Virus record (IMG/VR): IMGVR_UViG_3300042934_000580
Span: 1 to 21,047 of that record
Origin: a virus
Length of the DNA: 21,047 nt
Reading direction: 5' to 3' (one strand)
A program made the translations under genes and the position numbers. Of the stretch, positions 5,719 to 18,680 are shown one piece after another (position 1 is the stretch's first letter; each line of letters begins with the position of its first letter). The notes under the pieces were generated by a model, which made no database searches, was not told where the DNA came from, and saw only the letters and a program-made list of their open reading frames with translations.

Positions 5719-6846
5719 ATGCCTACTACTAATACAATGAGTAAATTAAAATTCTCATTACAAGCTCTTGCTAATTCTATAGCAACTAGAGCAGATAAAG
5801 GAGTTTTAATTTTAGTACTCGATGACAAGAATGTGCAAGGATTATATACATATAGGCAATTAAAAAAAGTAACCGAAAATTGGGAGACTGCAAATAAGAA
5901 TTATATATCTACAGCTTTTAGTGATTATGGAGTTGCTGAAATTATGGTCGTTTCACAACATACGAATGCAAATAGTACTGTTAATGGTAAAGACAACATT
6001 AGTAATTCTTTACCGAACTGTTTAGCACTATTAAATAAAGTATTTAAAAATGGTTGGTTAGTTGCACCTCAAATTAGTACTGATGCAGATAAAAAGATTG
6101 TAGCTGACTTTGTAAAATCGCAAAGAAAAGATTCTGATTATCCAATTAAAGCAGTTCTATATAATTATGAAGCAGATAATGAGGCGATAGTTAATTTTAC
6201 AGGTGCTAATTTAAAAAATACTATAAATGGAACTACAAGCCTTGTAGAATCTGGAGATTATACAGTAGAGGTTGCAAGTTATTTATGCATACTTGGTCCA
6301 AATGAATCAATTACTAATCATGTTGCTAAAAACATAACAGATTGTGATATAAAAGATGATGATGATGCATCTGTTGCAAATGGTGAGCTTTTCCTTTATA
6401 ACAACGGAACAAATATTGTATTCTCTAGAGGAGTTACATCAAAACAAACTTTTGCAACAAATGAATCAGAAGCATTATCTAAAATCAGAGTTGTTGAAGT
6501 AATAGATATGGTAAAGAGTGATTTAAGAGATACATTTAACAATAGTTATTTAGGTAAATACGGAAATAGTTATGCTAATCGTAAGAGTTTAGTTAGTAAT
6601 TTAAATGGTACTTATTTTAAAACCATATCAAAACAGGGATACCTTTCAAATGATGAAGTATCTTTCTGTGAATTAGATGTTGATGCTACTAGAAATTATC
6701 TTGAATCAAAAGGTACAGATACGGACAATATGAAAGATCAAGATATTTTAAAAGCAAAAATTGATACTCATGTTTTCATAAAATCTACATTATATATTAT
6801 GGACGTTATCGAGGACGTGAATTTTGTACTACAATATACAACTTAG
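5719..6846 (+). CDS. contractile tail sheath protein (XkdK-like)
   Basis: A 375-residue protein with AAAGGAATGATGAT ahead of ATG 5719. Evidence for a sheath: N-terminal helix SLQALANSIATRADKGVLILVLDD; alternating alpha/beta segments with WLVAPQISTDADKK and YPIKAVLYNYEADNEAIVNF; the core signature GELFLYNNGTNIVFSRGVTS; then KIRVVEVIDMVKSDLRDTFNNSYLGKYGNS; and a C-terminal strand DVIEDVNFVLQYTT, suited to the handshake between subunits. The protein polymerises around the tail tube and contracts on infection. It is shorter than PBSX XkdK but close to the sheaths of clostridial myophages. The tube gene follows at once. Confidence 0.85.
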   Translation: MPTTNTMSKLKFSLQALANSIATRADKGVLILVLDDKNVQGLYTYRQLKKVTENWETANKNYISTAFSDYGVAEIMVVSQHTNANSTVNGKDNISNSLPNCLALLNKVFKNGWLVAPQISTDADKKIVADFVKSQRKDSDYPIKAVLYNYEADNEAIVNFTGANLKNTINGTTSLVESGDYTVEVASYLCILGPNESITNHVAKNITDCDIKDDDDASVANGELFLYNNGTNIVFSRGVTSKQTFATNESEALSKIRVVEVIDMVKSDLRDTFNNSYLGKYGNSYANRKSLVSNLNGTYFKTISKQGYLSNDEVSFCELDVDATRNYLESKGTDTDNMKDQDILKAKIDTHVFIKSTLYIMDVIEDVNFVLQYTT

Positions 6847-6879: not shown

Positions 6880-7362
6880 ATGGCAGATGGTAATTTAAAT
6901 CCCTATGATATATTATTGGGAAATAAAGGAACATTAAAGATTGATGATATTGAACTTGCTGAATTAAAAGACCTTGAAATTAAATTAACTACTGAAACTA
7001 AAGAAGTTGGTTTAATGAACAGTTCAACTAAAGGTGAAGTTACAACAAGTTATAAAGGAGATATAAGTTTTGAATTAAATAAAGTTTATAGTAGATTCAA
7101 ACCTGTTATATTAGAATGTGCTAAAAAATTAAAACCTTTTACTTTTAATTTAGAAGCTACTGTAAAAAGACCAACCGATGATGATCAACAAGAAAGAATT
7201 TATATAAGTAATTGTTGGATAAAAGGTGATATAAATCTTTTTGCTCTAAAAGCAGAAAATGATTTCTTGACTGAAAAATATGAAGCGGGGTTCTTAATAG
7301 AGAATTGTGAGCTTGATGATATTATTGATGACAATGAAGATTGGAGTACATTAGAATCATAA
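6880..7362 (+). CDS. tail tube protein (XkdM-like)
   Basis: A 160-residue protein with AAAGGAAGTG before ATG 6880. It has the tube fold pattern: GNKGTLKIDDIELAELKDLEI, then KEVGLMNSSTKGEVTTSYKGDISFELNKVYSRF, a helix with LECAKKLKPFTFNLEAT, and CWIKGDINLFALKAENDFLTEKYEAGF. It polymerises into hexameric rings forming the inner tube around which the sheath packs. The order sheath, tube, chaperone is the conserved PBSX order. A second gene at 18177 encodes a clear paralogue (about 45% identical by eye). Confidence 0.85.
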   Translation: MADGNLNPYDILLGNKGTLKIDDIELAELKDLEIKLTTETKEVGLMNSSTKGEVTTSYKGDISFELNKVYSRFKPVILECAKKLKPFTFNLEATVKRPTDDDQQERIYISNCWIKGDINLFALKAENDFLTEKYEAGFLIENCELDDIIDDNEDWSTLES

Positions 7363-7396: not shown

Positions 7397-7798
7397 ATGG
7401 CTATTTTAACAGCACAAGATATAATTAATAAGAAAACAGAACTTGATAAACAACAGGAAGTCAAACATGTAAATATACATAGTAAGATATTAGATGGAGA
7501 AATTGAATTTCATTCATTAGGAAAAGGGGATATCAAAGACTTTAGAGATAGATTAAAAGTTGATTCAGCTAAAGCGACTTTATATTTCATATATATATCA
7601 TCAGACCTTTTAAGAGATAAGACACTTTTAAAAGCTTTTGGTTATGAAAAACATGATCAGTATTTAATAGTGGAAAAAGTATTTCCACGTGAAGTAGAAC
7701 GAGATAAAGTATTAGAAATTCTATTTAAATTAAATGGCTTAGATGGTTTAAATCCTGAAGATATCTATGTTAAGGAAATTGAAGAAACAAAAAACTAA
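7397..7798 (+). CDS. tail assembly chaperone, short form (XkdN-like)
   Basis: The 133-residue product of normal decoding, from ATG 7397 (GAGGAGAG upstream) to TAA 7796-7798. Features: N-terminal helix TAQDIINKKTELDKQQEV, a strand pair ILDGEIEFHSLGKGDIKDF, then KATLYFIYISSDLLRDKTLLKAF and KVFPREVERDKVLEILFKLNGLDGLNPEDI. This is the pattern of XkdN-type chaperones, which coat the tape measure while the tube assembles and are absent from the mature virion. Position directly after the tube gene supports the call. The tape measure would normally be the next gene, but here it is 7.3 kb away. Confidence 0.75.
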   Translation: MAILTAQDIINKKTELDKQQEVKHVNIHSKILDGEIEFHSLGKGDIKDFRDRLKVDSAKATLYFIYISSDLLRDKTLLKAFGYEKHDQYLIVEKVFPREVERDKVLEILFKLNGLDGLNPEDIYVKEIEETKN

Positions 7799-8037
7799 TA
7801 AAGGGCGATATTGATTTATATACATACGCCCATTATGTTTATAACAGAGGATTAACTTTAGATGAATTAGAAAATGCAGATTCATCTAAAAGGCTATTTT
7901 ATACAGCTAGTATGAAATTAATACAAGAAGAAGAAAGAGATAATCAACTTGCGTTAATGTCTACGTTAGCTATGGCTATAAATAATCCTAAAATAGCAAG
8001 CAATATAATGAAAGATATAAATAAAAAAAAGAAATAA
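7397..8037 (+). CDS. tail assembly chaperone, long form made by -1 frameshift
   Basis: After a -1 slip at A AAA AAC (7789-7795), the frame continues as CTA ATA AAG GGC ... to TAA 8035-8037. This gives a 213-residue protein (133 + 80). The added part reads LIKGDIDLYTYAHYVYNRGLTL, then DELENADSSKRLFYTASMKLIQEEERDNQLALMSTLAMAI and a lysine-rich end. The extension has no start codon or ribosome site of its own but good coding character, and lies in exactly the frame a -1 slip needs. Long-tailed phages commonly make such a G/GT pair, where the T extension binds the tape measure. Frameshift efficiency cannot be judged from sequence. Confidence 0.8.
7789..7831 (+). promoter_or_regulatory. programmed -1 ribosomal frameshift signal
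   Basis: The slippery heptamer A AAA AAC (7789-7795) is in the correct phase (ACA AAA AAC TAA). The zero-frame stop follows at once. GGGCG (7803-7807) pairs perfectly with CGCCC (7827-7831) across a 19-nt loop. The 7-nt spacer between heptamer and stem is the usual optimum, and the stem is notably GC-rich for this AT-rich region. Confidence 0.8.
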
Positions 8038-8045
8038 TATTGATA

Positions 8046-8068
8046 ATGGATATCTAAATGGTATCCAT
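8046..8068. other. hairpin just after the chaperone extension
   Basis: ATGGATA (8046-8052) pairs with TATCCAT (8062-8068). Two more inner pairs leave a 5-nt loop. It begins 8 nt after the long-form stop codon and has no T-run, so it may be an mRNA 3'-end or processing structure rather than a terminator. Confidence 0.45.
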
Positions 8069-8110
8069 AAATAAGTATTATTAAATAAAAGGTTCATTTT
8101 ACTTAAATTA

Positions 8111-8200
8111 AATAAATTATAAATAAAGTAATTGACTTTGGATTTTATTGGTGATATAGTTATATCAAGCCAGTAAATAAATTATAAACAAAGTCAATCA
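8111..8200. repeat. two AATAAATTATAA copies flanking nested inverted repeats
   Basis: Copies 6 (8111-8122) and 7 (8176-8187) of the motif lie in a 20-of-24 direct repeat (8111-8134 and 8176-8199). Between and across them are nested palindromes: ATTGACTTTG (8131-8140) with CAAAGTCAAT (8189-8198), TTATTGG (8145-8151) with CCAGTAA (8170-8176, one G-U pair), and TGATATA (8152-8158) with TATATCA (8161-8167). As RNA this would be a long imperfect stem; as DNA it could be a protein-binding or recombination site. Confidence 0.6.
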
Positions 8201-8223
8201 TATTTATATATTGCACACTGGAA

Positions 8224-8361
8224 TGGTGTTTTCCTTACACCAAGTTTATTGAATGTGTATGGTAATTATGACTGAGGAGTAGCTACCTCAGTCTAGCTAT
8301 CCAAAGTTTAATAAATAGGGAAATACGATTCGAATGTGTAGAAAACACATATTCAATAAAT
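8224..8361 (+). ncRNA. structured leader before the antirepressor gene
   Basis: Part of the 348-bp stretch 8038-8385, which has no credible gene. Visible helices: TGGTGT (8224-8229)/ACACCA (8237-8242); GACTGAGG (8270-8277)/CCTCAGTC (8286-8293) with a loop containing TAGCTA, which is self-complementary to TAGCTA at 8294-8299; and AATGTGT (8333-8339) with ACACATATT (8345-8353). The same 3' arm ACACAT-ATTCAATAAA can instead pair with TTTATTGAATGTGT (8246-8259), giving two exclusive folds just before the ribosome site at 8371. It resembles a riboregulator or a stable small RNA; no known riboswitch class is recognised. Confidence 0.45.
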
Positions 8362-8385
8362 TAAAAATAAAAGGAGGTTTTCTTT

Positions 8386-9366
8386 ATGGGAGAAAACAAG
8401 ATTATTAAACTATTTACAGGAGAAAAGGTACAAACTAATGGAAGGGAATTTACTAAATTGTTAGGTGGTTTTGGAGAAAATAAGCCAATGTTTACAGTAT
8501 GGCAATCTAGTGAATTACTTGGAAAGGCTACAAGAGAAATAATTCAAAATTATAATAATAATTTTGATAAATTTGAATTAAATGTTGATGTTGTTGATTT
8601 AAAATCCGCTATCAATCAAAATGATAGCGACAGTAAAGCTAGCATTACCAACGTTTTGAAGAATATTGGGTACTCTCAAAATAAACTTAATGCAACAAGT
8701 CAATGGTTGGGGTTTAGTTTTAGTGGTATGATGAAATTAGTAAAAATAATTGAATCGGAAGAATCGTGGAATATTTATAATGAATTTCTAGAAGATTATT
8801 TTAAAACTAAAGCAGAAAATATTGTTATGGAAAAGACTTTAGAAGAAAGTAAACAAGCAATAATAGAAGAAAGAAAATACATATTAGGTAGTGTACTTTT
8901 TGAAAAAGATGCAATTAAGAAAATGGAATTACTTGAAAGGGATAAGAAGTTAGAAGAACAAGAAAAGCAAATAGATATTACTTTAGCTAAAGAAAAATTA
9001 ATGGAGCAAGTACAAGATAGTTTAGCTATTTCAGAAAGATTTACTAATTCAAATAAATTATATGATGTTGGCGAGTTTTCAAAGATATTAAATATTCCTA
9101 AGTTTGGACGTAATAAATTATTTGAATGGATGAGAGAGAATAAAATATTACGTCCAAATAATGAACCATATCAAAATCAAGTGGATATGAATCACTTTAA
9201 GGTTATACCAATAGAAGGAAATAGATTTGCTGATTCTAAAACGTTGATAAAATCACAAGGCATTTCATACATAGTTAAAAAGTTGATAAAAGATGGTAAA
9301 ATTGAATCTAAATCTTATGAAGACATCATAAAGAATATAGATCAAAATTTGAAGGTTGCGAATTAA
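8386..9366 (+). CDS. phage antirepressor with C-terminal ANT/KilAC-type domain
   Basis: A 326-residue protein with AAAGGAGG 8 nt before ATG 8386. Residues about 1-145 form an N-terminal domain with an SSELLGKATREIIQNYNNN segment, probably a DNA-binding or Bro/ORF6N-like module that I cannot name firmly. Residues about 145-215 are a charged coiled coil (EKTLEESKQAIIEERK ... KLEEQEKQIDITLAKEKL). From about 222, LYDVGEFSKILNIPKFGRNKLFEWMRENKILR followed by PYQN and FKVIP is the ANT domain typical of phage antirepressors. Such proteins relieve CI-type repression. The gene has its own structured leader and its own terminator at 9419-9451. Finding it inside the tail operon, not in the lysogeny region, is unusual. 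Confidence 0.75.
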   Translation: MGENKIIKLFTGEKVQTNGREFTKLLGGFGENKPMFTVWQSSELLGKATREIIQNYNNNFDKFELNVDVVDLKSAINQNDSDSKASITNVLKNIGYSQNKLNATSQWLGFSFSGMMKLVKIIESEESWNIYNEFLEDYFKTKAENIVMEKTLEESKQAIIEERKYILGSVLFEKDAIKKMELLERDKKLEEQEKQIDITLAKEKLMEQVQDSLAISERFTNSNKLYDVGEFSKILNIPKFGRNKLFEWMRENKILRPNNEPYQNQVDMNHFKVIPIEGNRFADSKTLIKSQGISYIVKKLIKDGKIESKSYEDIIKNIDQNLKVAN

Positions 9367-9418
9367 TAATAAATTAAAAACAATATAGAACGGACTGAAT
9401 TTAATGACTAAAATATTT

Positions 9419-9451
9419 GAGGCTAGACTTTTAATAAAGTTCTAGTCTTTT
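9419..9451 (+). terminator. intrinsic terminator after the antirepressor gene
   Basis: GAGGCTAGACTTT (9419-9431) pairs with AAAG-T-TCTAGTCTT (9436-9449), with one bulged T and G-U pairs. The loop is short and four Ts (9448-9451) follow. It would end the antirepressor transcript and would also block upstream late transcription unless read through. Confidence 0.7.
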
Positions 9452-9515
9452 GAAATTATAATCACCTTTTGTAAAAAATTAACTAACGATTTTGATACAT
9501 ATAATTGTAAATAAG

Positions 9516-9524
9516 TGGTAAAAT
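9516..9524 (+). promoter_or_regulatory. possible extended -10 promoter for the toxin-antitoxin pair
   Basis: TGG TAAAAT is an extended -10-like element about 100 bp before the first in-frame ATG at 9626. The nearest -35-like hexamer, TTGATA (9492-9497), is 21 bp away, which is too far. The call therefore rests on the extended -10 alone. Apart from this and the terminator I see nothing else in 9367-9625. Confidence 0.3.
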
Positions 9525-9721
9525 AGAAATGTGAAAAAGTATTATATACATTTTTAATAAAATTTATTCCAGTTTTTATAAAAAATCGTTCGACAATTTA
9601 ACAAAAATGTAAAGTAGGTGGTATAATGAATATAAAGAGATATAAGAAAAATATTAATATAGAACATATCAAACAAGTAAAAAACATTACAGAAATAACC
9701 AGTCAAGATGGAGGTGTTCGT

Positions 9722-9877
9722 ATGAATGCTAGAATACAAGAGTTACAAAGAAAATTATCCTTAAATATGGATAAGGCAGTATTATTAGCTGAGAAGAATA
9801 CTATTAGAAACGAACAAGGATACGTAGTATTGTGTAAAGATGATGAGTGGAGAGATGAGGATGAGTGGGAAGAATAA
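9722..9877 (+). CDS. acidic antitoxin-like protein
   Basis: A 51-residue protein from ATG 9722, chosen because GGAGGTG lies at 9710-9716. An in-frame ATG at 9626 also has an AGGTGGT site and would add 32 basic residues. The body MNARIQELQRKLSLNMDKAVLLAEKN is a helix, and the end KDDEWRDEDEWEE is strongly acidic with tryptophans. This is the kind of flexible tail that antitoxins lay across MazF-type toxins. The stop codon is beyond the toxin's start, so the genes overlap. Antitoxin function is inferred from this context. Confidence 0.6.
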   Translation: MNARIQELQRKLSLNMDKAVLLAEKNTIRNEQGYVVLCKDDEWRDEDEWEE

Positions 9878-10259
9878 AAAGAAAGATATACAACCACAAG
9901 AAGTGTGGTATGTTAAATTTCCTTTTGAGGAAAATCCCAACATAAAGAAAAGAAGACCAGTAGTGGTATTAGGAAAAACAAATGACAAAGTAACTGTGGC
10001 AGGGTTAGAAGAAGATGCCTATTTAAGTGTTAAAGTCACAAGTCATACAGAACGAGAAGAAGATGAATATGATACAGTAATAGTTAAATGGAAAGAAGCG
10101 AATTTAAAAAAAGAATCAGTGGCTAGAGTTTCGAAAACAATAATTCTACCTAAAAGTCAATTTATTGATAGAGTTGGAATAGCAGATGATGAAGATTTTG
10201 AGAATATATTAGTCAAATACATAGAATTAACTGAATCATTTAATGATGACAGAACTTAG
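9861..10259 (+). CDS. PemK/MazF-family toxin (mRNA interferase)
   Basis: A 132-residue protein starting at ATG 9861, with GGAGAG 8 nt upstream; earlier in-frame ATGs at 9840, 9843 and 9855 lack a better site. The family pattern is clear: QEVWYVKFPFEENPNIKKRRPVVVLG (N-terminal strand, a charged loop, then the RRPVVVL core), VKVTSHTEREEDEYDTVIVKW, and KKESVARVSKTIILPKSQF (S-x-A-R-x-x-K). MazF-type toxins cut mRNA at short sequences. In a prophage the pair would favour retention or block competing phages. The stop codon lies within the stem of a terminator. Confidence 0.8.
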   Translation: MSGKNKKKDIQPQEVWYVKFPFEENPNIKKRRPVVVLGKTNDKVTVAGLEEDAYLSVKVTSHTEREEDEYDTVIVKWKEANLKKESVARVSKTIILPKSQFIDRVGIADDEDFENILVKYIELTESFNDDRT

Positions 10260-10293
10260 TAAAAGTAATACAAGCTTTGCTGAGTTCTTTTTT
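10251..10293 (+). terminator. intrinsic terminator after the toxin gene
   Basis: AGAACTTAGTAAA (10251-10263) pairs with TTTGCTGAGTTCT (10276-10288) with two G-U pairs, followed by TTTTTT. The toxin's TAG stop is part of the 5' arm. Confidence 0.8.
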
Positions 10294-10327
10294 ATTATAA
10301 AAATATCTTGACCTTATCCGATTTTCG

Positions 10328-10345
10328 TATAATAATGTTATTATA
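10328..10345. repeat. 18-bp palindrome TATAATAA-TG-TTATTATA
   Basis: Perfect 8-bp arms with a TG centre, 15 bp after a TTGACC hexamer and about 20 bp before an extended -10 element. It could be an operator for the promoter of the secreted-protein gene, but AT-rich palindromes of this kind can arise by chance. Confidence 0.35.
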
Positions 10346-10363
10346 GAGTAATAATCCTACTTA

Positions 10364-10372
10364 TGGTATAAT
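10364..10372 (+). promoter_or_regulatory. extended -10 promoter for the secreted protein gene
   Basis: TGG TATAAT is a perfect extended -10 element. A second TATAAT follows at 10376-10381. No good -35 is seen at 17 bp. Transcription would start about 30 bp before ATG 10410. It lies directly downstream of a terminator, so the following two genes probably form their own unit. Confidence 0.5.
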
Positions 10373-10409
10373 ATTCTATAATTTGATATTATTAAGGGGG
10401 ATGAGGATA

Positions 10410-11348
10410 ATGAAAATCGGTTTAATAAGAAAATTAATGGCTATTACAATTGCTACTACTACAATTCTAAGTACAACATGTGTTAGCGCAAGTGCTGAAT
10501 GGAGACAAGATAATAATGGTTGGTGGAATAGTGAAGGGAATTCATATTCTACTGGTTGGAGAGATATAAATTCAAAATGGTATTACTTTAATCCAAATGG
10601 ATATATGAAAACTGGCTGGATAAGTGATAATGGTAAATGGTATTATTTAAAAGATGATGGATCAATGGCTATTAATGAAACTGTGAATGGATATAAAGTT
10701 GATAATAATGGAGTATGGATACAGAATACTACTGTAAATTCTAACAATACCAGTGTTAATAACGTAAATTCAAATAACACTACAAATACAAGTGTGACTA
10801 ATAATATTAATAATGGAATAGTTATTAATGGTAATGTTAATATTGGAAATACTACTAACACTAATACAGCTATACAACAAAACAATAACAATACAAGCAT
10901 ACAGACAAGTGTACCATCTATAGATTCGAATGATCAAATTAATAGTTTGTACCCTTGTTGGACAATTTTAAATGGAAAGTATTATCATATAAATAAAGAT
11001 AAAGAAATTGATTATGATAAAATTGTTGATGGATTTGTAATTGGTGCAGATGGGGCATGGAAGCAATATAATTCAATCAAACCGCCAAAAGTAGTTGAAG
11101 TACCATATGCTTATAAGCTACAAGCTTTACAAGTAATTCAAAAATTACAACATGAAGCAAAATTAGATGAGATAAAAAATGAAAGTAAAGAAGAAAAACA
11201 TCAATATAGAATAGAACAAATAAAAGAATTGCAAGATAAAATTGACAATATTAAAAAACACAACTATAATAATGGACAAGAAATGCTACAAAAATATGAA
11301 AATGAAATTAAAGCACTAGAAATAGAAGATTCAAATGATTATAAATAA
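10410..11348 (+). CDS. secreted choline-binding-repeat protein with coiled-coil tail
   Basis: A 312-residue protein starting at ATG 10410. AAGGGGG (10394-10400) is too close to the ATG at 10401. Residues 1-29 are a classical signal peptide (KIGLIRKL, hydrophobic core, ASA cleavage motif before Glu30). Residues about 30-105 carry cell-wall-binding repeats of the GW-x-K-WYYF-NG-MKTGW type. Residues about 106-180 are an Asn/Thr-rich low-complexity linker. Residues about 185-230 hold a degenerate repeat (GKYYHINKD ... GADGAWKQ). The C-terminus is a highly charged coiled coil. It would sit on the host surface bound to choline or a similar wall substituent. No enzymatic domain is visible. As a prophage cargo gene it could alter the host surface or exclude other phages. 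Confidence 0.75.
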   Translation: MKIGLIRKLMAITIATTTILSTTCVSASAEWRQDNNGWWNSEGNSYSTGWRDINSKWYYFNPNGYMKTGWISDNGKWYYLKDDGSMAINETVNGYKVDNNGVWIQNTTVNSNNTSVNNVNSNNTTNTSVTNNINNGIVINGNVNIGNTTNTNTAIQQNNNNTSIQTSVPSIDSNDQINSLYPCWTILNGKYYHINKDKEIDYDKIVDGFVIGADGAWKQYNSIKPPKVVEVPYAYKLQALQVIQKLQHEAKLDEIKNESKEEKHQYRIEQIKELQDKIDNIKKHNYNNGQEMLQKYENEIKALEIEDSNDYK

Positions 11349-11401
11349 TTTTATGCGATTTTTAAGTTTATCTTATATAATTAGATTATGGGAGATAAGT
11401 A

Positions 11402-11974
11402 ATGTATTGTAAATTTTGTGGTAAAGAAACTAGTGATACTGAGGACGTTTGTAATGATTGCAAGAAATTACATGTAAAGAATGAAAAAAGTGCTAAAAAG
11501 AAAAATGATATTTTTATTATAATAACTCCATGTCTTATTGTATTATTAATAGCATATATTATTATTACAGTAAATAGTAGTAATCAGAAGGACTCTTCAA
11601 TTAGATATAATGATAATTCAGCATATAATGTCAAGGAAAATACTGCTAATCAAATGATAACAACTACACCTAAAGAAATATATAAAGACTATGATAATAA
11701 TAAAATAAGTGCAAATATTAAATATAAAGATAAAGATATTTCTATTACAGGTAAGATATATATTATTACTGAAGATGGTGGAACACCATCAATTGGATTA
11801 GTGAATTCAGATGATAAATATGAAATAACTATACCAGAAGTATACTGCTCTTTTGCAGATAATAAACAAAATGATAAAATTGCAAAATTATCTAAAGGAC
11901 AAGTAATAACTATCAAAGGAGTTTTAGATATGGCAGGAAGTAGTGTATATATCAAAAATTGTATACTGAAATAA
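11402..11974 (+). CDS. zinc-ribbon membrane protein with tRNA_anti-like OB domain
   Basis: A 190-residue protein with GGGAG about 8 nt before ATG 11402. Residues 3-20 form a zinc ribbon (C3-x2-C6 ... C17-x2-C20). Residues about 37-57 are one membrane helix (IFIIITPCLIVLLIAYIII). After a linker, residues about 85-190 match the tRNA_anti-like OB fold: EIYKDYDNNKISANIKYKDK, an ISITGKI strand, PSIGLVNSDDKYEITI, and VITIKGVLDMAGSSVYIKNC at the C-terminus. The family is common in host genomes, with no agreed function. The membrane topology would put the zinc ribbon inside the cell and the OB domain outside. It is probably co-transcribed with the secreted protein upstream, as there is only a 53-bp gap. 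Confidence 0.7.
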   Translation: MYCKFCGKETSDTEDVCNDCKKLHVKNEKSAKKKNDIFIIITPCLIVLLIAYIIITVNSSNQKDSSIRYNDNSAYNVKENTANQMITTTPKEIYKDYDNNKISANIKYKDKDISITGKIYIITEDGGTPSIGLVNSDDKYEITIPEVYCSFADNKQNDKIAKLSKGQVITIKGVLDMAGSSVYIKNCILK

Positions 11975-11997
11975 TTTAAAAAAATATATATATATGT

Positions 11998-12028
11998 AAG
12001 ACTAGATATTTTATTATCTAGTCTTTTT
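11998..12028 (+). terminator. intrinsic terminator between convergent genes
   Basis: AAGACTAGATA (11998-12008) pairs perfectly with TATCTAGTCTT (12015-12025) with a 6-nt loop and a T-run to 12028. The 3' arm overlaps the last codons and stop of the minus-strand repressor gene, so the structure serves as coding sequence as well as terminator. Confidence 0.85.
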
Positions 12029-12664
12029 AATATGAGTATTTAATAAATTGTCAGATTCAGATATTAATATATTTAAGTCAACATCAGATGTTTCGTACAA
12101 CCCTCCATTATTATAAATTTTAATCATTTTTGATATGAAATCTATAAGGTGCTTATTATTTGATTGTTTTACAATTAATGCATATAAAGAACGATATGCA
12201 AGTATAAATTTAAATTGAAATGAAGTTGCTTTTTGATCTCTGTATGCTTCAATTTCTTTTTTTATTCTAATTGGTAAGGAAGATAAATCTGAATCATCTA
12301 TAATAGTGTTAATTATTAATTCTAAGTTTTCTTCTAATGTATACTCTAAATCTAATCTTTCTTGAATTTGTTCTATCTCATAGAGTTCTTCATTAGTAGG
12401 AATTGTAGTATTTTCTTTTTTAAGTTTGTCTATTAATTCTAATGTTGTTTTATTAAACAATCTTTTTTTAGGTTCAATTTCAAATATATCATTAGGAGTA
12501 ATATCTAATACATTGCATAAATTTTCAAGTATGTCATATTTAATTGAAGTAGTTTCACCCTTTATAAGTTTTCCTAAATTATTTTGAGCTACACCAATCT
12601 CTTTAGATAGAGAATAAATTGATATATTTTTATTATCAAGAATTTCTTGCAATTTAATTTTCAT
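12014..12664 (-). CDS. XRE/Cro-CI-type repressor
   Basis: A 216-residue protein on the minus strand. ATG is at 12664, with GGAGGTGG (complement of 12669-12676) just upstream. Residues about 1-65 are a helix-turn-helix domain of the HTH_26/XRE type: LQEILDNKNISIYSLSKEIG, VAQNNLGKLIKGETTSIKYD, LENLCNVLDITPNDIFEI. The rest is helical, with acidic stretches and no LexA-like protease motif that I can see, so RecA-triggered self-cleavage is not indicated. It is the only gene in the window read from the minus strand. It faces the acidic-protein gene at 12913 and probably represses the shared promoter region and itself. Confidence 0.8.
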   Translation of the reverse strand: MKIKLQEILDNKNISIYSLSKEIGVAQNNLGKLIKGETTSIKYDILENLCNVLDITPNDIFEIEPKKRLFNKTTLELIDKLKKENTTIPTNEELYEIEQIQERLDLEYTLEENLELIINTIIDDSDLSSLPIRIKKEIEAYRDQKATSFQFKFILAYRSLYALIVKQSNNKHLIDFISKMIKIYNNGGLYETSDVDLNILISESDNLLNTHIKKTR

Positions 12665-12689
12665 TTTACCACCTCCACTATTTAATTAT

Positions 12690-12718
12690 ATTATACTTCA
12701 ACATAGGGTATGTAGCAA
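12690..12718 (-). promoter_or_regulatory. promoter of the XRE repressor gene
   Basis: On the minus strand, TTGCTA (complement of 12713-12718) and TATAAT (complement of 12690-12695) are separated by 17 bp, an ideal sigma-A layout. The start codon is 26 bp beyond the -10. Confidence 0.7.
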
Positions 12719-12741
12719 TAAAAAAATATTATAAATATATG

Positions 12742-12771
12742 TTGACATACTGTATTTGATAGTATTATAAT
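12742..12771 (+). promoter_or_regulatory. strong promoter with operator-like repeat for the acidic-protein gene
   Basis: TTGACA (12742-12747) and TATAAT (12766-12771), both consensus, have an 18-bp spacer. The spacer contains the inverted repeat ATACT ... AGTAT (12747-12751 and 12761-12765), a likely binding site for the divergent XRE repressor. Such a good promoter must be switched off in the lysogen if the product is costly. Confidence 0.75.
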
Positions 12772-12781
12772 GTTCACATAA

Positions 12782-12880
12782 GGTAAGTTAATCCAACTTA
12801 TCCAAGTATAAAAAATAAGGCAATAACCTAAAATGTTATCACCTAACCCTCGCAAAGTTAGTATAACATAGTTATTCCTT
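12782..12880 (+). promoter_or_regulatory. structured 5' leader with a possible 12-residue leader peptide
   Basis: Two hairpins lie between the promoter and the gene. The first is GGTAAGTT (12782-12789) with AACTTA-T-CC (12794-12802). The second is long and interrupted: AAGG/CCTT (12817-12820, 12877-12880), AATAAC/GTTATT (12822-12827, 12871-12876), ATGTTAT/ATAACAT (12833-12839, 12863-12869) and CTAAC/GTTAG (12843-12847, 12857-12861). Inside it, ATG 12833 to TAG 12871 could encode MLSPNPRKVSIT, preceded by a weak AAGG. Leader control is inferred. Confidence 0.5.
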
Positions 12881-12912
12881 GATTTCAATAAAATTTAAGG
12901 GAGATGTTGTAT

Positions 12913-13437
12913 ATGGAAACAATTATTCAAACAGAAATGAAAAGAGAAGATTATTATGAAGGAACTATAATGGATATTAGAAATTTATTCATTAATTATG
13001 GGCATTGGTTAGAAAAGAAAGGGATAGAAAACGAAGGTTCGATTGAAGACTATGAAAATTACCTACATAATATAGAACAACAAAAATTAGAAGAATCTAA
13101 AGAAACACATTTAAACAATAGTATACCAACTAGAAATGATGATTTAATAGAGTTTCAATGTTGGCTAGCATATCAGAATGAATGGGATAATGAAATAATT
13201 ATTATAAAAAAGGAAGAATGGGACAGATTCTTTGAATCTAAAATAGAAGATGATGAAATGGATATGAAAATAGTACAAGCTGATGATTTCTATGAGGAAT
13301 TTGAGAAGCTGGTAGGTATATATGATTTTGATGAATGTTTTGTTCGTATGAACTACATAGATGAAGTGCAGAATTTAATTAGTTTAACAATAAATATTAA
13401 TGGTAAAGATGAAAGTTTTATGATTGATATTGCTTAA
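12913..13437 (+). CDS. very acidic protein of unknown function
   Basis: A 174-residue protein. AAGGGAG (12897-12903) fits ATG 12913 (METIIQTEMK); the in-frame ATG at 12904 abuts the site. I recognise no family. It is very rich in Glu and Asp, with far fewer Lys and Arg, and has acidic clusters such as KIEDDEMDMKI and DDFYEEFEKL and several tryptophans. No membrane segment, signal peptide or nuclease motif is seen. High net negative charge at this size recalls DNA-mimic anti-restriction proteins, but no ArdA, Ocr or anti-CRISPR motif is recognisable, so this is only a hypothesis. Strong promoter, repressor-facing position and own terminator indicate a self-contained, tightly controlled unit. 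Confidence 0.6.
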   Translation: METIIQTEMKREDYYEGTIMDIRNLFINYGHWLEKKGIENEGSIEDYENYLHNIEQQKLEESKETHLNNSIPTRNDDLIEFQCWLAYQNEWDNEIIIIKKEEWDRFFESKIEDDEMDMKIVQADDFYEEFEKLVGIYDFDECFVRMNYIDEVQNLISLTININGKDESFMIDIA

Positions 13438-13464
13438 GTAGGAAATAAATATAGTTGATTATAT

Positions 13465-13476
13465 CGCTGAAAAGCG
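13465..13476. other. GAAA-tetraloop mini-hairpin
   Basis: CGCT-GAAA-AGCG: four base pairs, three of them G-C, closing a GNRA tetraloop. It lies 28 nt after the stop of the acidic-protein gene and just ahead of the branched terminator. In this AT-rich gap it stands out as an RNA structural element. Confidence 0.45.
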
Positions 13477-13492
13477 TTTATAATATATATTG

Positions 13493-13564
13493 TAGAAAGG
13501 ATAGGTTGAAAAGTCGCGAGTTCAACTAATAAGCTATCTCCAATTAGTTTTCCTTTCTATTTTT
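13493..13564 (+). terminator. branched (three-way) terminator-like structure
   Basis: The outer stem TAGAAAGGA (13493-13501)/TCCTTTCTA (13551-13559) is perfect and is followed by TTTTT (13560-13564). Inside are GTTGAA (13505-13510)/TTCAAC (13521-13526), closing a loop with TCGCGA, and a second helix from TAAT (13527-13530)/ATTA (13543-13546). The second helix can extend to AACTAAT/ATTAGTT by taking three bases of the first. GATAG (13500-13504) can also pair with CTATC (13534-13538). It most simply ends the acidic-protein mRNA, but alternative folds suggest a regulated or stable RNA. Confidence 0.6.
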
Positions 13565-13607
13565 ATAAGTATTGGAGAAATAAATTATATATTGGAGGAT
13601 GTTAGTT

Positions 13608-15155
13608 GTGAAAGAATTTAATAGACAATTAAATGAGCAAGAATATTTAGCATATATAGAACAGTGGAAAACTGAACATAAAGAGTTGATTAAGGGTTAT
13701 AAATACAGAAAAGTATTTTTAGAGTGTTTACCTAGAAAAGGAAAGCTTATTAATTGGAAAAATTCAATTAATTACAAAGTATATTTTATATATGAAAATG
13801 TAGAAGATTGGATAAAAATAAAAGATTATGATAATAAAAGAATAGAGATACATTATTATGATAATAAAATTTCAATATCAACTGGAGATTTTTCAAATTG
13901 TCAACTAGGTAGAATATTAGGCAAAGTTACATCAGAATTTAAAGTTAAAATAAAAGAAACGTTTAAAGATGATAAAAGAGATTTAATTGTTATTGATAGA
14001 GAGTATAGAGTTAGGTATGACAAAAATAATCAAAAACATAATGAAAAATGGTATAAATATAAATGTAATAAATGCAATTTTACCAATTGGATAAGTGAAA
14101 CCATGTTAACACAACAAAATGTTGGATGTTCTTGTTGTTCTGGTCATAATATTGTTTTGGGGTATAATGACATTCCAACAACAGCTCCTTGGATGGTTAA
14201 ATATTTTGTTGGTGGATATGATGAAGCTAAATTGTATACTAAAACAGGTGGTGGAAATCCTAATAATCGATATGGATATATTAATCCGATTTGTCCAGAA
14301 TGTGGACAAGTGAAAAATAAGAAAATAAAGATTTATAATATTTATAATTGTCACTCTATTTTTTGTAGTTGTTCAGATAAAATTTCTTACCCAGAAAAGA
14401 TCATGTTTGGGTTTCTTAAACAATTAGGACTAGATTTTCAAACACAGTTGTCTAAAACTACTTTTAAATGGTGTAAAGATTATAAATATGATTTTTATTT
14501 TGAATTAAATAATGATAGTTATATTATAGAAACACATGGTAAACAACATTATGAAGAATGTACTGGTAATTGGAAAAATAAATTTAAAGAACAACAAACA
14601 ATAGACAAACATAAAAAAGAATTAGCACTAGCGAATGGTATTAAAGAAGAAAACTATATCATTATTGATTGTAGAAAATCTGAATTAGGGTTCATAAAAC
14701 AAAATATAATTAATAGTAGATTAACCGAATTGTTTGATTTAGCTAAAATAGATTGGAATGAAATTCAAGAATTTGCTTTATCTAATTTAGTTAAGACTGC
14801 GTGTGAATATAAAAGAAAAAATCCTGAATTAACAAGTGTTAAAATAGGTAAATTAATGAAATGTGATAAAACTACTATAATTGATTGGCTAAAAATAGGT
14901 AAAAAATTAGGTTGGTGTGACTATGATCCTCAAAAAGAAATAAAAAGAGGTTATAATAATAGAAAAGTAAAAAGCAAAGCAATAGAAGTATTTAAAGATG
15001 GTATATCAAAAGGGAAATACCCATCAGGAGCTTACTTATGGAAAAACGGTGAAAAACTATTCGGTGTAAAATTTGACTATAGAAGTATATCGGCCGTATG
15101 TCATAATAAGTTTAAGACACATAAAGGTTATAGTTTTAAATTTAGTTCTAATTAA
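13608..15155 (+). CDS. free-standing homing endonuclease with zinc ribbons
   Basis: GGAGG (13594-13598) fits GTG 13608 with a 9-nt spacer; the in-frame ATG at 13599 touches the site. The product has 515 residues. After a unique N-terminal region of about 145 residues come two cysteine clusters (CNKC ... CSCC near 153-177, and CPEC ... CSC near 229-255) around GYNDIPTTAPWMVKYF, the usual zinc-ribbon pattern of phage homing enzymes. A Vsr/PD-(D/E)xK-like nuclease core follows: SYPEKIMFGFLKQLGLDF, then YDFYF and IIETHGKQHYEE, with candidate residues Glu263, Asp295, Glu308 and Lys312. The C-terminus has a helix-turn-helix and a NUMOD-like segment (FGVKFDYRSISAVCHNKFK). It would cut phage genomes lacking the gene and spread itself. 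No intron or intein is seen around it. Confidence 0.75.
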   Translation: MKEFNRQLNEQEYLAYIEQWKTEHKELIKGYKYRKVFLECLPRKGKLINWKNSINYKVYFIYENVEDWIKIKDYDNKRIEIHYYDNKISISTGDFSNCQLGRILGKVTSEFKVKIKETFKDDKRDLIVIDREYRVRYDKNNQKHNEKWYKYKCNKCNFTNWISETMLTQQNVGCSCCSGHNIVLGYNDIPTTAPWMVKYFVGGYDEAKLYTKTGGGNPNNRYGYINPICPECGQVKNKKIKIYNIYNCHSIFCSCSDKISYPEKIMFGFLKQLGLDFQTQLSKTTFKWCKDYKYDFYFELNNDSYIIETHGKQHYEECTGNWKNKFKEQQTIDKHKKELALANGIKEENYIIIDCRKSELGFIKQNIINSRLTELFDLAKIDWNEIQEFALSNLVKTACEYKRKNPELTSVKIGKLMKCDKTTIIDWLKIGKKLGWCDYDPQKEIKRGYNNRKVKSKAIEVFKDGISKGKYPSGAYLWKNGEKLFGVKFDYRSISAVCHNKFKTHKGYSFKFSSN

Positions 15156-15203
15156 AACGATAATAATATATATGCTTTGATATTTTAAAATTAAAAATAA
15201 TAT

Positions 15204-15242
15204 TCTAATTTAGTTTGATGAAGGTTGGCATTTTAAATTAGA
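15204..15242. other. hairpin before the tape-measure terminator
   Basis: TCTAATTTA (15204-15212) pairs perfectly with TAAATTAGA (15234-15242). Its loop holds AAGGTTGGCA (15221-15230), which can also pair with the 3' arm of the next terminator (TTGCCAATCTT). The two folds would compete, as in an attenuator. Confidence 0.45.
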
Positions 15243-15250
15243 TATATAAT

Positions 15251-15287
15251 AAAGATTAGCAATAATTAAGTTGCCAATCTTTTTTAT
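15251..15287 (+). terminator. strong intrinsic terminator just before the tape measure
   Basis: AAAGATTAGCAA (15251-15262) pairs with TTGCCAATCTTT (15271-15282), with one A-C mismatch, an 8-nt loop and six Ts. It ends the homing-endonuclease transcript. Only about 30 bp separate it from the tape-measure start, leaving no room for a full promoter. Confidence 0.8.
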
Positions 15288-15317
15288 TATATATAAATAT
15301 GAAAGGAGGGGGATTAT

Positions 15318-17363
15318 ATGGCAGTTCAAGATGTTTTATCAGCAAGATTAGAGGTCAAAGATTCTTTTACAAGTAAATTAAGCACCTTTATTACAAAAAC
15401 AAATAATGCTGAAAAAGCCTTTGAAAAATTTATTAACAATACAGATAAGTCAGCAAGGATATTAGAAAAGACATTTGATGTACTTGATAAAAAAATAGAT
15501 TCTGTAATCACAAAACTTGGTGCACAAACAGAAGTCATGAATAACAAAATAGCAAATTCTGCAAAGAAAGTTGAACAAAGTCAAACAAAAGCTATAAGTA
15601 ATTTGGCAAGTAAATATGGTAAAATGGGACAAGATGTACAAGGTATATTTAAAACTATAAACAAAGATGCGGAAACTCTTGCTAAATCAGGTATAAAATT
15701 AAGTCTAGGCGGTGGGAATGGTGACTCAAATAATAAAGGAAAAGGTCATAATCATGGAGGAGGTTCAAATGTCTTAGGTGATGGTGAACGTGCATTTGGT
15801 TCATTATTAAGTGGAAATTTTGAAATGATGGCGATGCAACTAGGTATTATAGGTGGAGCAGTACTTGGAGTATCAAAAATATTATCAACAATAGATAATT
15901 CAGTACAGCAAGGATTTAATGTACTCAATAATTTGTCGGGAAATTTATTGAGTTATGATGGATTAAAAGAAGGATTACAAAATGCAGGTCAGTTTGAAAC
16001 AAATAGAGTGGCTATGGACGTCTTATATGGAAACGACTCAACAATAGGGCAAAAATATTATGCTATGGGTACTAAACTTGCAAAAGATACTCCATATTCT
16101 GAAAGTGATTTAGGAACTTTGCAAAAGAAGCTGGCGGGGGCGAAAATAAATTATACTCAGGATCAATTAATGACTATATTGGATATAGCATCTATAAAAC
16201 CAGAGCTTGGAGCCGACCATGTCGGATTTTCAATTGTAGACGCTATGGCTGGTCGTTCAACCTCATTAAAGACAAATTATATGCTCGATAATAAAGAAAT
16301 TAATAAATATTTACAATCACTAAAAAAAAGTAGTAACTCTGAAGATAGAACAAATGCAAAAAAATGGAAGGATGCGTTTAATAAAACTGGTACGGTTAAT
16401 AATAAACAAGAGTATTTAGATCTATTAGTAGATTATGTAAGAAAGGAAACAAAATATACTGGATTAACAAAAAGATATTCTGAAACTCTAAACGGTTTAA
16501 TAGATAGAATAAAAGGACAATGGGAAACAGTAGAAGCAGATTTATTAGGAATAGATGCAAATGGTACAGGTATGGCTAAATCTGGAACAAACGTATTCAA
16601 TTCTATAAAGAATTTTTTAGAGTATATGGATGATTGGTTACAAAGCTCTACTGCTACAAATGTGCTTGGTAAATTAGGAACAGGATTAGGAACGGGTGTA
16701 GATTCAATTACTAAATCAATTGAAAAAACAATGAAAAAAATTAATTGGGATAATGTCGGTAGTACCTTTGAAAAGGTTGGAGATTCTATTGCTAAAGTAG
16801 TTGATAAAATAACTTCAAGTCCACAGTTTTCAAAATTATTAGAAGAATTGCCAGATATAATCGAAAAAATAATAACCAGTAAAGCTCTTCAATATGTTTC
16901 AGATACCAATTCTGGAAGTAAATATGCACAAGGTGATGTAGTAGGAGGTATGTATTCAGATTTTAATGGATATATATCAAAAACTAGAAGTAATTTAGGA
17001 GCAAAAGATGCACTTGATACATATACAGCCACACAAAAAATAATAGATGAAGAAAGCGATAGAGGTACAGTTGGGAATTGGGAATATAATGCTTCTCAAT
17101 TATGGTCGCAATTGGGATCAGCTACGAAATCTTTATGGAACATATCAATGTCACCATATGATAATCCAATTTTAACAGATGCTAATGCTAGTACATATTT
17201 AGCGCAAAATCCAAATTTGAATGATGATCAAAGAGATCAAATTAAAAATATGATTAACGATGATAATCAGGCAAAATATAATATTACAATTCATGAAATT
17301 AGAGCCGACAATTTTGATGAAATTATGCAATCAATACAACAAGTACAAGCAAACCAAAAATAA
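15318..17363 (+). CDS. tail tape measure protein
   Basis: A 681-residue protein with AAAGGAGGGGG before ATG 15318. Residues 1 to about 115 are long helices with coiled-coil character (AEKAFEKFINNTDKSARILEKT, ARxEVKDxFTSKL start typical of tape measures). A Gly/Asn/His-rich linker (KGKGHNHGGGSN) lies near 140. A hydrophobic region follows (MMAMQLGIIGGAVLGVSKIL, about 173-192), as expected for the membrane-inserting part. A large helical remainder ends with ITIHEIRADNFDEIMQSIQQV. The tape measure sets tail length during assembly and is ejected on infection. In XkdN-XkdO type clusters it follows the chaperone directly; here the accessory block separates them. Confidence 0.85.
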   Translation: MAVQDVLSARLEVKDSFTSKLSTFITKTNNAEKAFEKFINNTDKSARILEKTFDVLDKKIDSVITKLGAQTEVMNNKIANSAKKVEQSQTKAISNLASKYGKMGQDVQGIFKTINKDAETLAKSGIKLSLGGGNGDSNNKGKGHNHGGGSNVLGDGERAFGSLLSGNFEMMAMQLGIIGGAVLGVSKILSTIDNSVQQGFNVLNNLSGNLLSYDGLKEGLQNAGQFETNRVAMDVLYGNDSTIGQKYYAMGTKLAKDTPYSESDLGTLQKKLAGAKINYTQDQLMTILDIASIKPELGADHVGFSIVDAMAGRSTSLKTNYMLDNKEINKYLQSLKKSSNSEDRTNAKKWKDAFNKTGTVNNKQEYLDLLVDYVRKETKYTGLTKRYSETLNGLIDRIKGQWETVEADLLGIDANGTGMAKSGTNVFNSIKNFLEYMDDWLQSSTATNVLGKLGTGLGTGVDSITKSIEKTMKKINWDNVGSTFEKVGDSIAKVVDKITSSPQFSKLLEELPDIIEKIITSKALQYVSDTNSGSKYAQGDVVGGMYSDFNGYISKTRSNLGAKDALDTYTATQKIIDEESDRGTVGNWEYNASQLWSQLGSATKSLWNISMSPYDNPILTDANASTYLAQNPNLNDDQRDQIKNMINDDNQAKYNITIHEIRADNFDEIMQSIQQVQANQK

Positions 17364-18176: not shown

Positions 18177-18680
18177 TTGAATGAAAATAGAACGATAAAT
18201 CCATATAATATTGTATTAAGCAATCAAGGTTATATGAAAATTAATGATTATGAAATTGCAGAACTTAAAAACTTGGAAATTAAAATAGTCCCTGAAATGA
18301 AAGAAATTGGATTATTGAACACTGTTACAAAAGGAAAATTAATTACTAATGTAAGTGGAATGATTAATTTTGAATTTAATAAAATATATTCTAGATTTGT
18401 TCCTGCTGTATTGGAAGCATATAAATATCTTCAATTGTTTACTTTTAGTTTAGAAGCAGTTATACATTCACCAGACAAGACAAATGAAGAAGGTATTTTT
18501 ATTGATACATGTTGGTTAGAAGGAGATATTGATATATTTTCATTAAAATCGGACAATGATTTTTTGACACAAAAATTTCAAGCTGGCTTCAAAATAGAAT
18601 CTGCTGATTTTAGTAGTATACTCAGCGATAATGAAGATAGAGAAACTGATAAAGATTGGGCAACAACAAGTTATTGGTAA
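18177..18680 (+). CDS. second tail-tube-like protein (tube paralogue)
   Basis: A 167-residue protein starting at TTG 18177 with AAGGTGA 7 nt upstream. It aligns along its whole length with the tube protein at 6880: shared segments include NPY, IAELKNLEIK, KEIGLLN, TKGK, NKIYSRF, LFTFSLEA, CWLEGDIDIF and NDFLTQKFQAGF. By eye about 45% of residues match. It lies among baseplate genes, not beside the sheath. A tube-like protein here suggests a tube initiator or hub-to-tube adaptor, comparable in role to T4 gp48/gp54. That function is inferred from place and homology. A relative of the motif (ATAAATTATATA) overlaps the end of the LysM gene upstream. Confidence 0.8.
   Translation: MNENRTINPYNIVLSNQGYMKINDYEIAELKNLEIKIVPEMKEIGLLNTVTKGKLITNVSGMINFEFNKIYSRFVPAVLEAYKYLQLFTFSLEAVIHSPDKTNEEGIFIDTCWLEGDIDIFSLKSDNDFLTQKFQAGFKIESADFSSILSDNEDRETDKDWATTSYW

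Follow-up and report, generated by a model that had tools for sequence, protein, structure and literature searches.

The question raised by this locus is how an open reading frame without its own early start codon is expressed behind a tail chaperone gene, and whether the two form one unit. The DNA analysed, called the window here, is the whole 21,047-base IMG/VR virus record IMGVR_UViG_3300042934_000580. The 133-codon ORF at 7397-7798, G, ends with GAA GAA ACA AAA AAC TAA, and ACA AAA AAC TAA lies at 7787-7798 in frame with it. The -1 frame is closed on its upstream side by a TGA at 7780-7782, is open from 7783 to 8034 and stops at 8035-8037. A shift is therefore confined to the 16 bases from 7783 to 7798, which include the heptamer. 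When read from the CTA at 7795, the extension, T, has 80 residues. An earlier note had described the heptamer, the stop codon, a GGGCG/CGCCC pairing after a 7-nt spacer and a -1 frame up to 8037, and every base was found as described. Translation of the predicted frameshift product also reproduced its 213-residue form (133 + 80 amino acids). The claim that the extension lacks a start held for the first 39 codons but not beyond, where an ATG without a Shine-Dalgarno sequence is present at 7912. The ends of all 38 ORFs with 60 or more codons, counted on both strands of the window, were then compared, and only this one had an in-frame X XXY YYZ near its end together with a -1 extension of at least 20 codons. 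The 80 codons stayed open in 0 of 5000 dinucleotide shuffles. The features are listed in Table 1.

Table 1. Tail genes and elements of the candidate frameshift site in the window
Feature	Position	Strand	Basis or remark
Tail sheath	5719..6846	+	phrog_1480 E 4.5e-88; PF17482 E 5.4e-9
Tail tube, DUF2001/XkdM type; expected T partner	6880..7362	+	PF09393 E 5.1e-13; phrog_365 E 1.1e-25
G, XkdN-type tail assembly chaperone, 133 aa, 0 frame	7397..7798	+	phrog_4976 E 1.4e-17
Slippery heptamer A AAA AAC	7789..7795	+	In frame in G; same heptamer in 87/93 non-redundant family members
T, -1 frame extension, 80 codons + stop	7795..8037	+	Homology to T of relatives; purifying selection
0-frame stop UAA abutting the heptamer	7796..7798	+	Adjacency enriched over codon usage across the family
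Spacer, 7 nt	7796..7802	+	Family mode 6-7 nt
Stimulatory stem-loop	7803..7831	+	GGGCG 7803-7807 pairs with CGCCC 7827-7831; candidate by RNA folding
Tape measure; expected G partner	15318..17363	+	Homology to the ORF after T in relatives

The identity of G was examined with profile and structure searches. Residues 2-133 matched positions 3-129 of the 129 positions of phrog_4976, 'tail assembly chaperone'. The Pfam family PF08890 (Phage_TAC_5, XkdN-like) gave no match to the window G; the relative L012 scored 19.5 bits against a gathering cut-off of 27, and more distant relatives scored 101-152 bits. Since PF08890 misses the window G yet strongly matches farther relatives, we term G a divergent XkdN-like protein, which by its score lies outside this Pfam family. 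A sequence search against solved structures gave chance matches only. The AlphaFold2 model of G (mean pLDDT 79) consists of a helix, a beta-hairpin and further helices. Its best solved match in Foldseek was YqbN of B. subtilis (3klu, TM 0.54-0.59) with an E value of 0.022, which is below the usual significance, and the HK97 tail assembly chaperone gp13 (2ob9) ranked lower (TM 0.42-0.53, E 1.9 and 3.6). From the profile, and tentatively from this predicted fold, G is assigned as a tail assembly chaperone.

G lies directly 3' of the tube gene, and the tape measure gene, which adjoins in relatives, is found downstream beyond a 7.3-kb insert. The tape measure protein is 28-31% identical over its full length to the ORF that adjoins T in L017-L025 and L038, among other relatives. 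Judged by its sheath and tube genes, the tail is of the contractile type. The insert at 8038-15317 is an accessory block with a KilA-C antirepressor, a choline-binding protein, an HTH regulator on the minus strand, a homing-endonuclease-like ORF at 13599 and a PemK-like toxin at 9840 that is preceded by a small ORF at 9626. L012 carries non-tail genes at the same point, different from those of the window, and in L017-L025 the tape measure gene directly follows T. After the tape measure gene and a Dit-like gene, a second tail tube (DUF2001) paralogue was observed at 18177-18680; it shares 53% identity with the tube encoded at 6880-7362. It is unusual for a contractile tail module to encode two tube-type proteins, and the paralogue may form the tail tip or an initiator ring.

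DNA and protein searches with the chaperone or the extension gave no direct relatives. The relatives were instead reached via the tail sheath protein, whose divergent alignments contained no stretch conserved enough for scanning, and by a phrog_4976 profile search that covered phage records and Clostridia genomes, 391 at class level and 207 at family level. Nearly all phrog_4976 matches were inspected, and the loci were chosen by protein profile or sheath similarity, blind to the heptamer. The filter passed 134 loci, which together with L006 (A AAA AAG CCA TAG) gave 135 usable loci; 93 remained in a non-redundant set cut at 80% identity of T. L011 and L024 are truncated. The close relatives are the IMG/VR loci L011-L014, with 65-70% sheath identity, and L092 from a Clostridium-family genome. 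At middle distance are L015-L025 and the Clostridium weizhouense prophage L038, and the far relatives are Clostridioides, Terrisporobacter, Lachnospiraceae, Fusobacterium, Bacillus, Brevibacillus, Sporosarcina, Geobacillus and Streptococcus phages. The Clostridium host assumed in the earlier note agrees with the relatives, which include loci in C. weizhouense and in further genomes from the same family.

In each of the 135 usable intact two-frame loci, A AAA AAN occurs where G ends and the -1 frame is open, and the heptamer noted in the window thus proved conserved among related phages. No relative with T as a separate gene, and none with the heptamer lost and both frames open, was found among the surveyed loci. 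The heptamer of the 93 non-redundant loci is AAAAAAC in 87, AAAAAAG in three, AAAAAAA in two and AAAAAAT in one. Asparagine is encoded here by AAC and not AAT in 87 of 88 cases, whereas AAC makes up 28% of the Asn codons elsewhere in these genes; the chance expectation of the heptamer at x-Lys-Asn is 0.07. These counts indicate that selection acts on the seventh base over and above the amino acid need. In the close relative L092, AAG stands in place of the AAC of the window and L012, with the stem and both frames kept.

The stop codon directly follows the heptamer in 74 of the 93 loci and is one codon away in another 15. The adjacent UAA arises because the first T codon, CUA, creates the stop. 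CUA was observed in 57 of the 86 cases with a CUN codon at this place, compared to 17% of the CUN codons elsewhere, whereas CUU, the commonest elsewhere (48%), is the first T codon in four cases only. A need for Lys-Asn and Leu-Ile codons alone was considered as the source of the heptamer and the adjacent stop and was ruled out by this codon usage. The adjacency of the stop codon appears to be selected, with a firm direction but not firm P values: the non-redundant loci are mutually related and therefore binomial figures (naive counts) overstate the significance.

There are two exceptions in the family. L094, the sole match that lacks a -1 frame altogether, is located next to ribosomal protein genes and was rejected as a decayed remnant. 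Compared to the near-identical MismyG (L111), the Streptococcus phage EJ-1 (L115) carries one additional base 5' of the A6C run, and this base fuses the frames to a continuous G-T ORF of 198 amino acids. The fusion is either a natural obligate one or an old sequencing error.

The RNA downstream of the heptamer was analysed by folding. In the window, the segment 7796-7845 has a minimum free energy of -9.9 kcal/mol and a z of -1.95 against shuffles, which is modest for the stem alone. Over the 93 loci, the mean folding z was -2.08 for the region from +5 to +64 after the heptamer, compared to -0.54 in the 60 nt that follow; two upstream controls gave -0.17 and -0.22. The paired probability climbs family-wide from 0.21 at +0-4 to 0.86 at +10-14, and the most frequent start of the first helix is 6-7 nt past the heptamer. 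These values point to a significant structure downstream of the heptamer across the family, and it is because of this signal that we find the stem convincing. The stem proposed for the window is conserved: in the window, L012 and L092 all five pairs are intact with three further pair types, including changes from C-G to U-G and from G-C to G-U, whereas a shifted-partner control was 27-67% paired. Since these changes are wobble and synonymous third-position changes in three close orthologues, they are consistent with, but not strong evidence of, covariation. A search of Rfam gave no match in the window.

T itself was compared with its relatives. The window T matched the family T profile with an i-Evalue of 1.2e-12 in hmmsearch and a probability of 97.7 in hhalign. 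In the -1 frame, dN was lower than dS in nearly all pairs tested, with 0.30 versus 0.48 for the window and L012 and 0.02-0.11 versus 0.30-0.71 for several closer pairs; the L018-L025 pair had too few changes to judge. We conclude from these ratios that T is under purifying selection. Its length ranges from 43 to 80 codons among the 93 loci, the window T being the longest, and it begins with a conserved LIK.D. The model of T is all-helical (mean pLDDT 78), and a fold search with it against solved structures gave no match. In the non-coding stretch 3' of the window T, a 21-nt direct repeat TAAATAAATTATAAAYAAAGT was observed at 8109-8129 and 8174-8194, along with inverted repeats. In L092, a terminator-like hairpin and a T-run directly follow the T stop, suggesting that the transcript may end there.

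T might also be made as a separate protein by ribosomes that terminate at the G stop and reinitiate (translational coupling). An ATG, GTG or TTG occurs within the first 15 T codons in 60 of the 93 non-redundant loci, and the loci nearest to a separate T gene form a Clostridium clade (L015-L021, L023, L025 and L038) whose -1 frame has an ATG 2-4 nt past the stop. However, the other 33 loci have no start within the first 15 T codons, the window T has none in the 39 codons mentioned above, and a 5-base Shine-Dalgarno-like match is found upstream of only 13 of the 60 early starts. Even in the Clostridium clade the heptamer is kept and the ATG has no Shine-Dalgarno sequence. The start has been gained and lost, as it is missing from the sister locus L022 and the window, whereas the heptamer was never lost. 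T is conserved from its first codons, since LIK.D lies upstream of most candidate starts, and reinitiation would leave the bias at the seventh base and the RNA structure unexplained. We regard it as a very unlikely source of T overall. Because the ATG is just past the stop in some relatives, coupled reinitiation may contribute there, but not in the window, and a dual expression of T by frameshifting and reinitiation is possible in this clade.

Even less probable is transcriptional slippage, in which an A of the A-run is gained or lost during transcription and the altered mRNA is then translated normally to GT. Such an event is possible in L057, L058, L067, L070 and L073, where A AAA AAA is part of a longer A-run, with nine A before TAG in the sequences read. 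The window and most loci, however, carry six A only, which is short for slippage of RNA polymerase. The in-frame phasing, the C at the seventh base, the 3' stem and the adjacent stop are hallmarks of ribosomal slippage that transcriptional slippage does not need. That a sequencing error or a decaying gene splits the frames and the extension is accidental, as the uninterrupted frame of EJ-1 could suggest, is refuted by conservation, with an identical two-frame layout in more than 100 loci from many genomes and phages and with purifying selection on T.

Taken together, we assign a probability of about 0.93 to ribosomal frameshifting, in which G and T would be one translational unit and a -1 slip at A AAA AAC would yield GT. 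Most ribosomes would translate G and end at the UAA at 7796. With the AAA and AAC codons in the ribosome, a pause would be caused by the stem, 7 nt further on, and probably by the adjacent stop as well, and a minority of the ribosomes would slip back by one base and continue with CUA AUA AAG into T, giving the GT protein. We infer a rate of a few per cent. By analogy to gpG and gpGT of lambda, many G and few GT would cover the tape measure protein, and tail tube subunits would be recruited by the T part, which would let the tube polymerise to its correct length; G and GT would leave the tail after the assembly of the tube. Against the frameshift stand the shortness of the GGGCG stem, its modest z and limited covariation, the weak fold match of G and the low efficiency of A AAA AAC in E. 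coli (PMC4066793, PMC5009743); the earlier note had called this heptamer weaker there than A AAA AAG. IS elements use it nonetheless (PMC4066793). It is conceivable, but we think rather doubtful, that in the Firmicute XkdN family the tRNA-Asn slips onto AAA and the UAA in the A site and the stem are active in the mechanism, unlike in the E. coli rule. If this is true, the slippage rule would differ from the cognate A-site re-pairing on A AAA AAG in E. coli and would be tuned to the tRNA-Asn/tRNA-Lys sets and the release factor speed of Firmicutes.

In the deposited phage records examined, T was either omitted or annotated as a short 'hypothetical protein' that begins at an internal start, and the GT protein is missing from the gene calls. 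XkdN is sometimes labelled 'portal protein': in some Clostridioides phage records (behind L002, L008, L109 and L119) this label was given to XkdN or the sheath, and the tube was called 'terminase'. In the virion proteome of phiCD508, the XkdN-like gp57 and the small gp58 were undetected (PMC11948020), as expected for chaperones; gp58 probably corresponds to the T frame. A search of the literature library gave no description of a frameshift in the XkdN family, but the survey of Xu, Hendrix and Duda (2004), considered here through its summary in PMC5009743, may include members. What appears to be new is that A AAA AAC is used almost exclusively, that the stop codon is kept next to it by selection, and that database records miss the extension or call it hypothetical. 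Through the survey, many naturally occurring bacterial A AAA AAC sites are available that appear clearly selected despite their poor efficiency in E. coli. Since close relatives differ at the seventh base with all else kept, the efficiency of -1 frameshifting in bacteria outside E. coli is directly testable.

The closest parallels were found in tail chaperones. According to the summary in PMC5009743 of Xu, Hendrix and Duda (2004), the G/GT frameshift of lambda is conserved in long-tailed phages; in lambda, G binds the tape measure protein and T the tail tube subunit (PMC5009743). The window resembles lambda in that the chaperone gene follows the major tail protein gene upstream of the tape measure gene, and in a -1 slip predicted near its 3' end with a short T in the overlapping -1 frame. 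It differs in its contractile Firmicute XkdN-type module, and no sequence match was found between its chaperone and G of lambda. The heptamer of lambda is G GGA AAG, whereas here it is A AAA AAC, with the stop directly adjacent and the tape measure gene displaced by 7.3 kb. With XkdN and YqbN of PBSX-like elements and Clostridioides phages (PF08890, phrog_4976, 3klu), the window shares phrog_4976 and the gene order sheath, tube, XkdN and tape measure, and the same layout of A AAA AAC, stop and T is present in PBP180, phiC2, JD033 and other XkdN-type relatives. Unlike these chaperones, the window protein scores below PF08890 and carries the longest T. A precedent in Firmicute phages comes from Paenibacillus larvae phages, to which a G/GT frameshift at AAAAAAG (in Dragolir possibly at AAAAAAC) was tentatively assigned in a genome announcement without comparative or structural analysis (PMC6003738). 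In IS1, the insA/insB frameshift also uses A AAA AAC in a bacterial element and avoids a stop by a -1 slip at a low rate of about 2% (PMC12428005), but its product is a transposase, which is unrelated to tail chaperones. The GeneTack survey lists A_AAA_AAC among the consensus heptamers of frame transitions and gives 6-7% measured for a phage chaperone cluster (PMC3711429). In conclusion, the comparison of sequences places the locus in a known kind, the tail chaperone frameshift of the lambda G/GT type, of which it is an ordinary but unusually clean and wide example.
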